38,529 nt of DNA from Candidatus Woesearchaeota archaeon (GTDB lineage: Archaea; Nanobdellota; Nanobdellia; Woesearchaeales; J110), in assembly GCA_003694805.1 (NCBI GenBank), contig RFJU01000121.1:1-38529 (forward strand), read 5' to 3'. The notes below the pieces were generated by a model. It searched no databases. It saw only the letters and a list, made by a program, of their open reading frames with translations, and was not told where the DNA came from. The position numbers and the translations under genes are program-made. How positions within the stretch are numbered: position 1 is the first letter of the stretch; each line of letters starts with the position of its first letter. Shown here one piece after another: positions 22,691 through 29,315 of this stretch.

Positions 22691-25195
22691 ATGCCCAACC
22701 GCTACCTCGCGGCACTCTTCCTCCTTCTTCTCACGAGCAACGCCGCCCTTGCAACGTTCGAAACCAGCATAACCTCAGAAAACATAAAAATACGACCTTG
22801 GGACGCGGCACCACGCACGAAAACACACACCATCGATGCCGTAAAAGGCGAATGGGTAGCAACACAAATCATCACTCGCACGCAAGACAGGAGCACGAGC
22901 GGCATTGACATCACCGCAACGCCGCCGCAACGCAAGAACGACTACCTCCCAAGCCTCTCATTCTACAAGGAATACAACCACGACCTCATGTACGCGAGCA
23001 GAGTCGCAGGAGGCGCAGGAGAGTGGCCGGACGCGCTCATTCCAAAAAAAGACCCGTACTACCATGAAGAACGAAACGCATTCCCCTACGACGTAAAGCT
23101 GGTAAGCAAAGCATACAACGTTTGGGGATACAACCTCACCGGCCAATGGAAAATCAACAGAAGAAACAGCGCCCAACACCCACCACAACCGCTGGGCGAG
23201 TATACAGGAAACGAAGCCCGCGTCTACCACATCAAAATAACCCAGCCAGGCCAAGCAGGACTTGCGCAATTCGTGTGGAGCGACGACGACGGCGCCACGT
23301 GGTCACCGCCACAAACCGTCCCGGCAAGCCCCACCGAAACCATCCCCCTCTCCAACGGCATCAGCGTACAATTCCCCGTGCAAACCAAGGACTACGCAAC
23401 CGACGACGAATACGAATTCTTCGCCAACACCTACCGAAACGACGTTATCTGGGCTGAAACCTTCATCCCAGAAGACACCGCGCCAGGAACCTACACGTCA
23501 ACCATTACCGTCACCGCAGACAACCAGCCACCCCAAACACTCAACCTCACCATCATCGTCCACGACATCACCATCCCCCGAACCAGCTCCATCCCGGTAT
23601 GGTACCTTGCAAGCAGAAACAGCATCAGTGCCGGGCACGCCCAACAAATAAACCCGGGAGGAGACTGGGAAGCGCTCTTTGACGACTACCTCGAAGAAGG
23701 CCTCAAACACCGCATCACCCTTGACGGCCTCTACCCATTCCTCTCCTGGAACGGCACGGACATCACCAACTGGGACGTGTTCGCCGCAAAAGCACGCCCG
23801 TACCTGAACGGGCAGTGGAGCTACGGAGCCAAGGCCAGCTTCCTTCAACTCCCCCGCGCCCCCCCGCACGACTCCTTCTTCAACCTCATCTTCAAAGAAA
23901 CCATTAAAGAATACGACCTCAAAGAATACCGCCTCGACATCACAAGAGAAAACTACTCCCTCCCCTTCATCATGGGAGAGCGAGTCACGCTTCAAAACGG
24001 AGCCAGCTTTAGAAACCTTCACGAAAGCCAACCGTACTTCGCCGACGAAGTCGACGGGGTTCTCAAGCCCGGCACGAACATGACAGGAACGCAATCGAAC
24101 GCGACAGCAACGCTCACGGCAGCAACACCGTCAGAAACGTTCTACCTTGACAAGCTCGACAACCTCCTCGCCCAGGAAGGATGGCTGGACAAGACGTACA
24201 ACTACATGATAGAAGAGCCGACTTGGCCAAATGAGTACTCAAGCACGAACTACACGGACACGCCAGCACCGCAAACCATGACCGACGCCATTCGGCAAAC
24301 AAGCACGAGCATGAAAGCCATCAACCCCGAATTCAAAAACTTCGCTGTCGAAATCTACCAAGAAGAATGGGAAGACGCTATTGACGTCTGGGTCCCTAGC
24401 ATAGCAGGATGTGGCCGAACAGGGTACGTCGATTGTTACGCGAGCCGCGACAAGCAAGACATCGTTCAATGGAGCTACGCTGCTTGCGGCACACATCATT
24501 GCTACCGGACTGGAGACGACACCTTCACAAAACTCCCCACGCACATCATCGACGCAAATTTCACCAACCTTCGAGGCATGTACTGGCTCAAGTACAACGG
24601 CAACATCACTGGCGACCTGTACTGGCGGGTCGACTACCAATTCGTCTTCGCAGGCCACAGCACCCCTATTGACCCGTGGGAAAACATCTGGTTCGCTGGA
24701 GGAAACGGCGACGGCACGCTCTTCTACCCCGGCCGCCCAAACATCGTTGGCGGCACTCATCACATCCCCATCAGCTCCCTGCGCGTCAAAGCCATACGAG
24801 AAGGTCTTGAAGACTACGAACTCTTCGCCCTCGCAACGCAAAGGGGTCTGCGAAGCGACGTCCTTGACGCTATCAAAGACGCTGTTGGGACGGACTGGTA
24901 CGCGTACACCACCCTCCCCACCCCCGCCGCTATGGACCACGCAAGAAAAGAGGTCATCACCCTCCTCGAAGGAACCTGCTACACGCCAGCAAGGGCCGGC
25001 GACGTGGACTGCAATAGCGAGGTAAACATCTACGACCTCACCCTCGTCGGGAGCAGCTTCGGCACAACACCCCAAAGCCCGGACTGGAATAGGAAAGGCA
25101 AACGCGCAAATGCATGCAGCACGACAGAGCTCTCCCCCCGCGTCGGCGTAGAAGACCTCAACTGCGTTAGCCAAAACTTCGGCAACGCCGACTAG
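22691..25195 (+). CDS. Secreted DUF4091 (GH123-like) protein with dockerin-like C-terminus
   Basis: The 834-aa protein has a signal peptide (about residues 1-21, ending ALA). An N-terminal beta-sandwich region follows, with GEWVATQIITRTQD and a later WAETFIPEDTAPGTYTSTIT segment typical of this family. The alpha/beta-barrel-like part carries YNYMIEEPTW, where GH123/DUF4091 proteins usually show a DEP-type catalytic pair; here it is Glu508-Glu509. The family end motif is clear at about 672-720 (GDGTLFYPGRP, then SLRVKAIREGLEDYELFAL). The last 65 residues look like a dockerin or EF-hand pair (GDVDCNSEVNIYDLTLVG and GVEDLNCVSQNFG). It probably cuts or binds an external glycan, perhaps an N-acetylhexosamine polymer. 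Substrate and activity are inferred. Confidence 0.85.
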   Translation: MPNRYLAALFLLLLTSNAALATFETSITSENIKIRPWDAAPRTKTHTIDAVKGEWVATQIITRTQDRSTSGIDITATPPQRKNDYLPSLSFYKEYNHDLMYASRVAGGAGEWPDALIPKKDPYYHEERNAFPYDVKLVSKAYNVWGYNLTGQWKINRRNSAQHPPQPLGEYTGNEARVYHIKITQPGQAGLAQFVWSDDDGATWSPPQTVPASPTETIPLSNGISVQFPVQTKDYATDDEYEFFANTYRNDVIWAETFIPEDTAPGTYTSTITVTADNQPPQTLNLTIIVHDITIPRTSSIPVWYLASRNSISAGHAQQINPGGDWEALFDDYLEEGLKHRITLDGLYPFLSWNGTDITNWDVFAAKARPYLNGQWSYGAKASFLQLPRAPPHDSFFNLIFKETIKEYDLKEYRLDITRENYSLPFIMGERVTLQNGASFRNLHESQPYFADEVDGVLKPGTNMTGTQSNATATLTAATPSETFYLDKLDNLLAQEGWLDKTYNYMIEEPTWPNEYSSTNYTDTPAPQTMTDAIRQTSTSMKAINPEFKNFAVEIYQEEWEDAIDVWVPSIAGCGRTGYVDCYASRDKQDIVQWSYAACGTHHCYRTGDDTFTKLPTHIIDANFTNLRGMYWLKYNGNITGDLYWRVDYQFVFAGHSTPIDPWENIWFAGGNGDGTLFYPGRPNIVGGTHHIPISSLRVKAIREGLEDYELFALATQRGLRSDVLDAIKDAVGTDWYAYTTLPTPAAMDHARKEVITLLEGTCYTPARAGDVDCNSEVNIYDLTLVGSSFGTTPQSPDWNRKGKRANACSTTELSPRVGVEDLNCVSQNFGNAD

Positions 25196-25250: not shown

Positions 25251-25275
25251 CCTCTTGCCTGTTCTCACACCCATC

Positions 25276-27966
25276 ATGCCACCGTCCACAACACCACCAA
25301 TAGACTTGCGTTTGCTCCCTAAAAAATGGCAGAAGCGCTGGGAAAGAGCCGGCATCTTCAAAACCAGAGAAGACCCTGCCAAAGAAAAATACTACGTCCT
25401 AGAAATGTACCCCTACCCGAGCGGCTCCGGCCTCCACATGGGACACGCGCGCAACTACTGCATCGGCGACGCGTACGCTCGCTACCAACGCATGCGCGGC
25501 AAAAACGTCCTCTACCCAATGGGGTACGACAGCTTTGGCCTCCCCGCAGAGAACGCAGCCATTAAGGCCAAGAGCCATCCAAAAAAATTCACGGAAGCAG
25601 CCATTGAACAATTCAAACGCCAACAACGTGCTCTCGGCCTGAGCTACGACTGGGACAGACTCATCATGTCCCACGACCCCTCATTCTACCAATGGGACCA
25701 GTGGCTTTTCCTCAAACTCTACGAGAAAGGACTTGTTTACCGCAAAAAAAGCATTGTAAACTGGTGCCCGGCGTGCCAGACCGTCCTCGCCAACGAGCAA
25801 GTCCACAACGGCACGTGCTGGCGGCACGAAGACACCAACGTTGAGATCAAAGACCTCGAACAATGGTTCATCAAAACCACCGCGTACGCAGAAGAGCTTC
25901 TCAAAGGCCTCGATTCGCTTGATCACTGGCCTGACGATGTCAAAACCATGCAGCGCAACTGGATTGGCAAGAGCACCGGCACCATCATTGAATTCCCTGT
26001 TGAGGGCAGCGACAAGAAGCTTCGCGTTTTCACCACGAGACCAGACACCTTCTTTGGCATCACCTTCCTCGTCTACGCCCCCGAACACCCTGACGTCAAG
26101 GAATTCGTTAAAGGAACGCCTTATGAGAAGCAGACAAAAGCATTCATTGAAAAAGTCCTCCTCCAAGACCGCTTCCAACGAACCGCGGAGGACAAGGAAA
26201 AAGAAGGCCTCTTTATTGGAAAATATGCCATCAACCCCCTCACCAAGGAAAAAATCCCTATCTACATTGCTAACTTCGTCCTCTACGAATACGGCACCGG
26301 TGCGATCATAGCCGTCCCGGCCCACGACCAGCGCGACTTTCTCTTCGCAAAAAAATACAACATCCCCATCAAAGTCGTGATCAACCCTCCCGACTTCGAC
26401 CTCGACCCGAGCAAGATGAGCCGGGCCTACACGGGTGACGGCTACCTCGTCAACTCCGCTGAATTCAACGGCATGCACAACCGTGACGCGATGGAGGCTA
26501 TCACTGAACACCTCAAGGCAAAAAAGTGCGGCGGCCCCAGCACGCAGTACAAGCTCCGCGACTGGCTCGTCTCGCGCCAGCGCTTCTGGGGATGCCCAAT
26601 TCCCATGATACATTGCGAGGAGTGCGGCATCGTGCCCGTCCCTGAAAAAGAGCTTCCTGTCAGGCTCCCTGAAGACTTCACCTTCACCGCCACCGAAGGA
26701 AACCCTCTTGCACATTGCGAAGCATTTGTCAACACAACGTGCCCTTCATGTGGCAAGCCAGCAAAACGAGAAACGGACACTATGGACACCTTCTTTGATA
26801 GTAGCTGGTACTTCCTGCGCTACTGCGACCAGCATAACCACACACAGCCGTTCAGCCCAAAAAAAGCTGCGTACTGGATGCCCATTGACACGTACATCGG
26901 TGGCAAGGAACACGCGACAATGCACCTCATTTACTTTCGGTTCTTTACCAAATTTCTCCGAGATATTGGCTTCCTCTCCATTGACGAACCATGCATCCGC
27001 CTCTTTAACCAAGGCATGGTACACAAGGAAGGAACGGTCATGAGCAAGAGCAAAGGAAACGTTGTCACCCAAGAAGAAATTGAAAAAACATTCGGGATCG
27101 ACACTGCGCGGTTCTTCCTCCTCTTCGTCGCCTCCCCCGACAAAGACCTCGAATGGGATGACAAAGGCGTTGCGGGCGCTCACCGCTTCCTCACCAGAAT
27201 CATCGACCTCTACACGAGAAAGGAACTCACAAGCGAGCTTCCAAAGAATCAAGAGAGCAAGCTTCACCGAACCATCAGAGACGTTACAACCAGCATTGAA
27301 TCTTTCAAATTCAACAACGCGCTCGTAAGCATTATGCAGTTCGCACACTATCTCATCGAAGAAGAACGCGTCAGTACAGTCGCGCTCAAGCACCTTGCCA
27401 AGCTTCTTGCACCGTTCACACCTCACCTTGCAGAAGAGCTCTGGGAGCTTCTCGATGAACAAGCCTTTATCAGCCTCGCGCCGTGGCCAGCCTATGATGA
27501 GAGCAAGATCGACGAAGAACTGGAAAGCCATGAACGCACCCTCAAAACAACTATTGCTGACCTGCAAAACGTTAAGAAACTCTCAGGCATCGCCCGCCCA
27601 AAACAAGCAACGCTCTTCATCGCGGCCCCGTGGAAATACTCCCTCGTTCAAGCCATCAAAGAAGAACTTTCGAAAGGAAGCGACGCCAAAACACTCTTCC
27701 AAGCTGTGATGCAACGAGACGAAGTCAAACAACACGGGCAAGAGGCTGCAAAGCTCATCCCCCGCCTCGCCAAAGACCAAAGCAAACTCCCTCTCTTCGT
27801 GAGCTCCCCGGAGAACGAGCGCGCCTACCTTGAGGAAAAAAAGAACATCATCGCCAAGCGCGCACAACTCGAAGCAGAAAGCATAAAGGTTGTCCACGAA
27901 CAAGAAAGCAAAGAAGCCAAGGCACGCCAATCCCTTCCTGGCAAGCCAGCAATCCTCCTGTTATGA
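25276..27966 (+). CDS. leuS: Leucyl-tRNA synthetase, bacterial type
   Basis: Class I synthetase that charges tRNA-Leu. The 896-aa protein has the HIGH-type motif GLHMGHARNY (His54 to His57), an editing domain with TTRPDTFFGITFLVYAPEHP, zinc-like pairs in WCPACQ and CPSCGK, and the KMSKS motif as MSKSKGN (about residues 589-595). The opening YPYPSGSGLHMGH, NVLYPMGYDSFGLPAENAA and the size match bacterial LeuRS. Archaeal and eukaryotic LeuRS has a differently placed editing domain and distinct signatures. The gene was therefore probably acquired from bacteria and replaced the native one. Its stop overlaps the convergent sigma-like gene by six bases. The C-terminal anticodon-side region is intact up to a short LPGKPAILLL end. 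Confidence 0.93.
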   Translation: MPPSTTPPIDLRLLPKKWQKRWERAGIFKTREDPAKEKYYVLEMYPYPSGSGLHMGHARNYCIGDAYARYQRMRGKNVLYPMGYDSFGLPAENAAIKAKSHPKKFTEAAIEQFKRQQRALGLSYDWDRLIMSHDPSFYQWDQWLFLKLYEKGLVYRKKSIVNWCPACQTVLANEQVHNGTCWRHEDTNVEIKDLEQWFIKTTAYAEELLKGLDSLDHWPDDVKTMQRNWIGKSTGTIIEFPVEGSDKKLRVFTTRPDTFFGITFLVYAPEHPDVKEFVKGTPYEKQTKAFIEKVLLQDRFQRTAEDKEKEGLFIGKYAINPLTKEKIPIYIANFVLYEYGTGAIIAVPAHDQRDFLFAKKYNIPIKVVINPPDFDLDPSKMSRAYTGDGYLVNSAEFNGMHNRDAMEAITEHLKAKKCGGPSTQYKLRDWLVSRQRFWGCPIPMIHCEECGIVPVPEKELPVRLPEDFTFTATEGNPLAHCEAFVNTTCPSCGKPAKRETDTMDTFFDSSWYFLRYCDQHNHTQPFSPKKAAYWMPIDTYIGGKEHATMHLIYFRFFTKFLRDIGFLSIDEPCIRLFNQGMVHKEGTVMSKSKGNVVTQEEIEKTFGIDTARFFLLFVASPDKDLEWDDKGVAGAHRFLTRIIDLYTRKELTSELPKNQESKLHRTIRDVTTSIESFKFNNALVSIMQFAHYLIEEERVSTVALKHLAKLLAPFTPHLAEELWELLDEQAFISLAPWPAYDESKIDEELESHERTLKTTIADLQNVKKLSGIARPKQATLFIAAPWKYSLVQAIKEELSKGSDAKTLFQAVMQRDEVKQHGQEAAKLIPRLAKDQSKLPLFVSSPENERAYLEEKKNIIAKRAQLEAESIKVVHEQESKEAKARQSLPGKPAILLL

Positions 27967-28887
27967 ACCATTTTGCTCTTTCCAAATCTGGAGCAAGACC
28001 TCGGCCTGCAAAGCCCACTTCTTCTTTTGTCGAATCCACTCATACAGCTCAGGCTCTTCCCTCTTGAGATCTCTCAGCAAGTACCCTTCGAAAAAACGTC
28101 TGTTATCAAGCAAGACGCGTATAGGATTTTCATCTGCTTGATTTCGATCACCACCCTCCGCGGCGTATAGTCTTTCGTCAAGCACCCTCTCATTCCTTGA
28201 GCCATTCTTCCCGTTTCCTTTCTCACCTCTCCATCGTTCCGTGTATTGTACGATACTTTCGAGGCGAACTCGCAGCTCAAGAAGGCCTTCGTTCTCCAAT
28301 TGTCGAACGCGTTCGCGAGAAATTCCTAGCTCGTCTCCGATCTCCCGCAACGTACGCTCTCCTTTCGAATTTTTTCCCCTCTGCCACGATTTGCTCTCTC
28401 CATTTCCCAAATACGCCTTGACGCGCTCGTCGTCGCCGCACCCCTCTTTCTTTTCAGTATAGGTATTCTGTATGTTCTTTATCATTCCTTTCTTGAGAAG
28501 CTGATCGCGAATAATATCAAAAACAACTCCGTAGATCCCGAATCGCCTGCACAGTACATATGACCTGCGAGGATCTTTATGCTCTTCAAGATACGAGTTT
28601 TTGCGAGACGAACGAGAACGGCTCGCCTCCCCATTCCCGCGATGCTCCATACTGCCAGGCGCGTTCTTTCCCATTGATGCTTCACAACCGGCCATCTCCA
28701 GCAACAAAGTATGCACTTTTTCAGTTAAGTCGCTCACAATAGCCAACTCTTCAGGGCTTCTTTCTTCAGCTCGTAAAAAATCAAGAAGAGAAAGCCCGCT
28801 CTCTTCTTCAGTTGGCGCGTCATAGCTCACGGCCTTAAACAAGCTTGCTGCGTAATCGTCGATAGGGATTTTGCCCATTTGCTGCAC
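27961..28887 (-). CDS. Sigma-70 region 3/4-like HTH protein
   Basis: Two parts resemble bacterial housekeeping sigma factors. Residues 22-58 (YDAPTEEESGLSLLDFLRAE, then RSPEELAIVSDL) look like the sigma region 3.2 signature. Residues 107-120 (RRSYVLCRRFGIYG) and 178-206 (RTLREIGDELGIS, then RERVRQLENEGLLELR) look like the two halves of region 4, with the HTH that reads -35 elements. Hydrophilic Ser/Arg/Gly/Lys-rich inserts (66-104 and 121-177) separate them. Region 2, needed for -10 binding and core clamp contact, is missing. Archaea have no sigma factors, so it is probably a repurposed DNA-binding regulator. Start is a GTG, or an ATG three codons later. Base composition differs from neighbouring genes, which suggests transfer. 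Confidence 0.82.
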   Translation of the reverse strand: MQQMGKIPIDDYAASLFKAVSYDAPTEEESGLSLLDFLRAEERSPEELAIVSDLTEKVHTLLLEMAGCEASMGKNAPGSMEHRGNGEASRSRSSRKNSYLEEHKDPRRSYVLCRRFGIYGVVFDIIRDQLLKKGMIKNIQNTYTEKKEGCGDDERVKAYLGNGESKSWQRGKNSKGERTLREIGDELGISRERVRQLENEGLLELRVRLESIVQYTERWRGEKGNGKNGSRNERVLDERLYAAEGGDRNQADENPIRVLLDNRRFFEGYLLRDLKREEPELYEWIRQKKKWALQAEVLLQIWKEQNGS

Positions 28888-29017
28888 CTATTTTCAAGCA
28901 ACTCTTTCTTTTTCAATAATTCTTGATAGTTGTAAGCTTTGCTGTCTTTGTTTCTTTGCTTGCTGGCTTCAAAGAGCCTCCTTTGCCGAAGCAAACCTGC
29001 TCGCTATATCAAAAAAA
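28888..29017. other. Spacer between the sigma-like gene and SRP RNA
   Basis: No gene is seen. On the minus strand a weak AATTATTGA box (about 28913-28921) could serve the sigma-like gene. The 3' flank of the SRP RNA begins with its T-run. Confidence 0.4.
29011..29017 (-). terminator. Poly-U terminator of the SRP RNA
   Basis: Seven T on the minus strand follow the closing helix and a GC step. This is the usual archaeal U-tract end for a stable RNA. Confidence 0.6.
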
Positions 29018-29294
29018 GCGGCATGCGCGCCCGAGGGTGGGCTCAGACACCGGAGCGCTGGTGAACCCTTGACGCACCTCCCCTCCGCGACCCTCACAGC
29101 ACCGAACACTTGACTGAGAGCTGCTCCCGCTAAGGCCTGACTCGGTTCATCAGAGCGTCGGCCAGTGAGGACAGAGGATCGACGGCGTGCCAAGGACCAA
29201 ACACCCTAGTGCTCAACCGCCCCTCGAGCTTCGTCCGCACCGTAAAGCCCATTTGTGCCAACAGGGCAGGGCTAGCGCCCCGGACTAGCATGCC
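29018..29294 (-). ncRNA. ffs: Signal recognition particle RNA (7S RNA)
   Basis: The RNA scaffold of the signal recognition particle, which binds SRP54 and SRP19. The transcript is about 277 nt. The 5' end GGCATGC pairs with 3' GCATGCC (29294-29288 with 29026-29020), which gives the closing helix 1 found in archaea. The SRP54-binding helix 8 is clear: GAACCG upstream, then TCAGG-CCT, loop TAGC, GGG-AGCAG (29140-29121). It aligns base for base with the E. coli form TCAGG-TCC, GGAA, GGA-AGCAG. The loop TAGC fits the URRC class instead of GNRR. A TATA box 26 bp upstream and a seven-T run downstream define the ends. Confidence 0.9.
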
Positions 29295-29315
29295 AGTTGC
29301 GGGGAAGCCCGCCCT

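Follow-up and report, generated by a model that had tools for sequence, protein, structure and literature searches.

On the evidence of its sequence, a protein of 308 amino acids (P0001) encoded in the DNA analysed here (hereafter the window; a stretch of 38,529 nucleotides from a Candidatus Woesearchaeota archaeon) is a genuine derivative of sigma-70. It is an unusual variant of archaeal sigma genes that had already been noticed, not a one-off. The features of P0001 and its surroundings are as follows.

28887..27961, minus strand: P0001, sigma-70-derived protein of 308 aa; the ORF starts with GTG, and the ATG at 28878 (Met4) is the probable true start
28885..28889, minus strand: AGGTG, which may be the ribosome-binding site of the ATG at 28878 (by eye)
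28702..28842, minus strand: P0001 residues 16-62, comprising the end of region 3.1/3.2 together with helix 1 of region 4.1 (profile match; AF2 helix 45-65)
28576..28692, minus strand: first insert of P0001 (residues 66-104), hydrophilic and modelled with low confidence
28528..28575, minus strand: P0001 residues 105-120, second half of region 4.1 (DPRRSYVLCRRFGIYG; profile match)
28363..28527, minus strand: second insert of P0001 (residues 121-175), modelled for the most part with low confidence
28258..28362, minus strand: P0001 region 4.2 helix-turn-helix, residues 176-210 (RTLREIGDELGISRERVRQLENEGLLELR; Pfam; pLDDT about 95)
27964..28251, minus strand: helical extension at the C-terminus of P0001 (residues 213-308), which matches no family (Pfam; AF2)
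29019..29295, minus strand: archaeal SRP RNA (7S) (Rfam RF01857, 130.2 bits)
25255..27966, plus strand: leucyl-tRNA synthetase (LeuRS), which converges on P0001, the ends overlapping by 6 bp

The ATG at 28878 is probably the better start of P0001, with AGGTG just upstream; sites resembling AGGTG also precede other genes in the window. In the Pfam scan, Sigma70_r4 (PF04545) alone exceeded its cut-off (39.1 bits versus 24.1; E-value = 5.5e-10; residues 177-206), and its match spans only positions 20-49 of 50, so that a complete and uninterrupted region 4.1-4.2 was not found. Sigma70_r3 and region 2 (PF04542), which serves -10 recognition and core binding, were unmatched in the same scan; thus, the Pfam search proposed by the initial annotation bore out Sigma70_r4 and not Sigma70_r3. 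The claim that region 2 is missing stands, there being no Pfam match to it in the ORF and no concealed region 2 or 3 upstream, where the SRP RNA is located and no reading frame is open. Features of archaeal TFB (Zn ribbon, cyclin repeats) were not recognized in P0001 in the Pfam scan. Among the 60 matches listed in a phmmer search of the PDB only sigma factors appeared (best E-value = 4.8e-4), and region 4.2 is nearest to RpoS/RpoD models.

With P0001 left out, a profile was built from the C-halves (regions 3.1-4) of 27 sigmas of the same genome and others of the order. It finds three colinear pieces in P0001, namely residues 16-62 (3.2 to 4.1a), 99-120 (4.1b) and 171-210 (4.2), which, together with the Sigma70_r4 match, uphold the sigma ancestry first put forward in the initial annotation. 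The region boundaries given there were otherwise right, only the range 22-58 being slightly short of the 16-62 found here, in which the linker letters SYDAPTEEES..LLDFL..SPEEL can be read. The profile score rises from 38.7 bits for the whole protein to 72.2 bits once residues 66-104 and 121-175 are removed, in agreement with the earlier claim that hydrophilic inserts split region 4. The region 4.2 part by itself scores 39.8 bits against the order profile, and 1000 shuffles of the kept residues outside 4.2 gave a mean of 36.7 bits (sd 1.5) and a maximum of 47.1. Because the joined pieces, at 72.2 bits, lie above this maximum, region 3.2 and both halves of region 4.1 are real, and the region 3.2 linker (residues 16-62) is joined to region 4.

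The AF2 model contains confident helices at residues 45-65, 106-116, 121-132, 180-187 and 191-222, including the helix-turn-helix, with low confidence for most of the insert sequence and a mean pLDDT of only 67.5. In a Foldseek search of the PDB, every one of the best matches was a sigma factor or a sigma region 4, though not one was significant (E-value = 0.1–1). The recognition helix, SRERVRQLE, retains the residues R-E-x-x-R-Q, which in bacteria are of the type that touches the -35 element. P0001 is like bacterial RpoD/RpoS-type sigma-70 in having the linker SYDAP..LLDFL..SPEE, region 4.1 and region 4.2 in equal order, whereas it lacks region 1.2, region 2 and full region 3, and carries a C-terminal extension of 96 aa and two inserts, about 39 and 55 aa long, that interrupt region 4.

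Both inserts are in frame and stop-free, and lie in loops between region-4 helices. Shorter insertions occur at both of the same loops in other sigmas of the order (in G117 at the 4.1 loop, and in G142a and G012 at the 4.1/4.2 loop). Introns were rejected as the source of the inserts: the RNA of both regions folds no better than shuffles do (z = 0.38 and 0.83), and inspection of the predicted folds by eye revealed no bulge-helix-bulge pattern. A repeated element was likewise rejected, as the genome contains no second copy, only short chance repeats.

The SRP RNA ends 131 bp before the P0001 ORF on the same strand and is followed by a T run. The window also encodes Rpo3, uS13 and a protein with an S4 domain that was interpreted as uS4, and a TFB-like ORF was recognized by eye elsewhere in the genome, on contig C57; from these and the SRP RNA, the host is archaeal. 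The editing domain of LeuRS matches PF13603 (E-value = 7.2e-72) and looks bacterial-type in this archaeal host. A protein of 834 aa (22691-25195, plus strand) has a glycoside hydrolase 123 catalytic domain (E-value = 1.2e-9), which is unusual in an archaeal genome of 1.2 Mb. Third codon positions throughout the window (1-38529) are strongly A- and C-rich on the plus strand, whichever the gene direction. As the initial annotation had noted of its base composition, P0001 departs from its neighbours: its GC3 is 0.50, versus 0.62 ± 0.04 in the 29 other genes of the window (z = -3.0), and its third-position AT skew on the plus strand is 0.03, versus 0.53 ± 0.14 (z = -3.5). A second sigma-like ORF of the genome, on contig C16, is also weaker in AT3 skew than its neighbours, and both ORFs look recently acquired or differently constrained.

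The initial annotation regarded a sigma-derived protein in an archaeon as unusual, a view that could not be maintained for this lineage. The C16 ORF encodes 268 aa with region 2 (E-value = 5.1e-11) and region 4 (E-value = 4.1e-8), although its 4.2 helix (KSKEWARKRV) is without the canonical -35 residues. Of the 145 genomes sampled from the order, 49 encode region 2 (38 of the 102 high-quality ones), and for the phylum as a whole the figure is 100 of 279 (84 of the 220), including assemblies of one to three contigs; in one single-contig genome (G010), the sigma gene adjoins an ORF resembling uS15 (by eye). According to Castelle et al. 2021 (PMC8204110), sigma-70 factors are prevalent in Woesearchaeota, with misbinning excluded on the strength of co-encoded genes, and no anti-sigma factor was found. 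The suggestion that P0001 is part of a control switch found no support. On contig C18 of G114 (L149:6119-9464, minus strand), three divergent tandem sigma-like ORFs lie near an ORF resembling the archaeal ribosomal protein L10e (by eye). Very long ORFs with sigma regions were also seen, namely 1763 aa in G071:C5 (L051), 999 aa in G007:C18 (L150), 904 aa in G136:C34 (L152) and 889 aa in G019:C1 (L050), the sigma regions being N-terminal in that of G007 and C-terminal in the other three.

No homologue with the truncation and inserts of P0001 was found in 60 relatives, GTDB genome contigs, IMG/VR or phages, so the search for homologues in related archaea that had been proposed at the outset came out negative. 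In a tree, the sigmas of the order are not monophyletic but require 13 changes, at least three of them forced by strong branches, which suggests that sigmas were acquired several times. P0001 itself falls near Planctomycetota sigmas, on a long branch in an alignment of about 120 columns whose bacterial rows were picked by similarity to P0001. In a count of exact sites, TTGACA-N16-18-TATAAT occurs neither in the P0001 genome nor in its control. Another genome, G021, contains 12 such sites (eight of them on contig C5), versus one in the control, and no sigma was found in it; its contig C5 may be misbinned or an element with sigma-type promoters.

Three other proteins of the order are like P0001 in keeping region 4 and missing region 2. 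That of G119 (contig C29, L153:2818-3909, minus strand; 363 aa) combines sigma region 4 (E-value = 1.2e-14) with an alpha-CTD (PF03118; E-value = 7.7e-24), and its contig also encodes SRP54 and diphthamide synthase, an archaeal chromosome context like that of P0001. That of G048 (contig C17, L160:2283-3734, plus strand; 483 aa) likewise joins region 4 to an RNA polymerase alpha-CTD, its N-terminus aligning poorly with the G119 protein; these two archaeal genomes are from different families, and the alpha-CTD is of the bacterial RNA polymerase type. In G046 (contig C103), an XRE-like helix-turn-helix is fused to region 4. Thus, within the order, region 4 has been put to new use without region 2 on more than one occasion. 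In each of these three proteins, a second DNA-binding domain can be recognised next to region 4, to which it is fused, whereas the extra parts of P0001 match no family. The sigmas of Woesearchaeota and other DPANN in Castelle et al. 2021 (PMC8204110, fam00359) resemble P0001 as bacterial-type sigma-70 in TBP/TFB-bearing archaeal genomes, but the available part of that paper treats sigma-70 in general, with no account of forms that lack region 2, of inserts in region 4 or of fusions between sigma-4 and alpha-CTD; a literature search of partial coverage also found no description of region-2-less sigma-4 proteins of the order.

P0001 has no domain with which to recognise and melt a -10 element and therefore cannot be a complete sigma alone; since its recognition helix keeps the -35-contacting residues, binding of -35-like DNA is plausible. 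We lean towards regarding P0001 as a sigma that was obtained by horizontal transfer and pared down to a DNA-binding regulator of the -35 type that perhaps binds the polymerase. On this view, a bacterial-type sigma-70 would have entered the DPANN archaeon from outside; region 2 and the greater part of region 3 would then have disappeared, and the two loop inserts and the helical C-terminal extension would have been added, while region 3.2 and region 4 with the canonical -35-reading helix were kept. Region 4.2 would then bind sites resembling TTGACA, and the inserts or the tail might contact other proteins, possibly the flap of the archaeal RNA polymerase. The probable ribosome-binding site and the compact fit between the SRP RNA and LeuRS favour such a regulator, as do the three colinear sigma matches, the in-frame inserts in loops, the confident helix-turn-helix and the other region-2-less proteins of the order. 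Against it are the lack of a homologue with the same architecture in the genomes searched, the absence of exact TTGACA-N16-18-TATAAT sites and the modest mean pLDDT, and the unameliorated composition also fits a recently acquired gene in decay.

Decay is the main rival, though on balance rather unlikely: P0001 would be a functionless remnant of an acquired sigma gene, its 5' part lost and the rest open by chance. The loss of region 2, the two large inserts, the foreign composition and the want of a conserved homologue all agree with this, but 308 codons are free of stops, the inserts are in frame and exactly in loops, region 4.2 is intact and a ribosome-binding site is probable; any decay would be recent, since the third-position skew has not drifted to the value of the neighbours. 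In a two-part sigma such as SigO/RsoA of Bacillus, by analogy, P0001 could be the region-4 half and another protein, perhaps that of C16, with its region 2 and noncanonical 4.2 helix, could complement the canonical -35 residues of P0001. This is highly improbable, as the C16 protein has a region 4 of its own, the genes are on different contigs, and no -35/-10 sites were found in the genome by the exact count.

Being adjacent to the SRP RNA in the same orientation, P0001 recalls SRP-associated helix-turn-helix proteins like bacterial YlxM, but it has no YlxM/UPF0122 match in the Pfam scan, its region 3.2 linker and 4.1b mark it as the descendant of a sigma of primary type, and the SRP RNA has a T-run end of its own, so that it can hardly be such a protein. 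A chimeric contig, against which the initial annotation had cautioned, or bacterial contamination would account for the deviating base composition of P0001, but no sign of a chimeric contig was seen: the third-position strand bias is equal on both flanks, which speaks against a chimera, the SRP RNA is only 131 bp away, the end of LeuRS overlaps P0001, and sigma genes occur also in genomes of one to three contigs in the order and phylum. We consider this explanation extremely unlikely.

Archaeal and bacterial polymerases have a common core and different initiation factors (TBP/TFB versus sigma). It is conceivable, though we hold it doubtful, that the acquired sigmas of the phylum have been dismantled and rebuilt as region-4-based regulators that read -35-like sites and act on the archaeal polymerase alongside TBP/TFB. 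If true, P0001, the sigma-4/alpha-CTD proteins and the XRE/sigma-4 protein would represent a new class of archaeal regulators. Sigma genes exist in about one third of the sampled species of the phylum, some of them without region 2 and with region 4 fused to the bacterial alpha-CTD, and such genes allow a direct test of whether sigma domains work on the archaeal polymerase or act as ordinary DNA-binding regulators.
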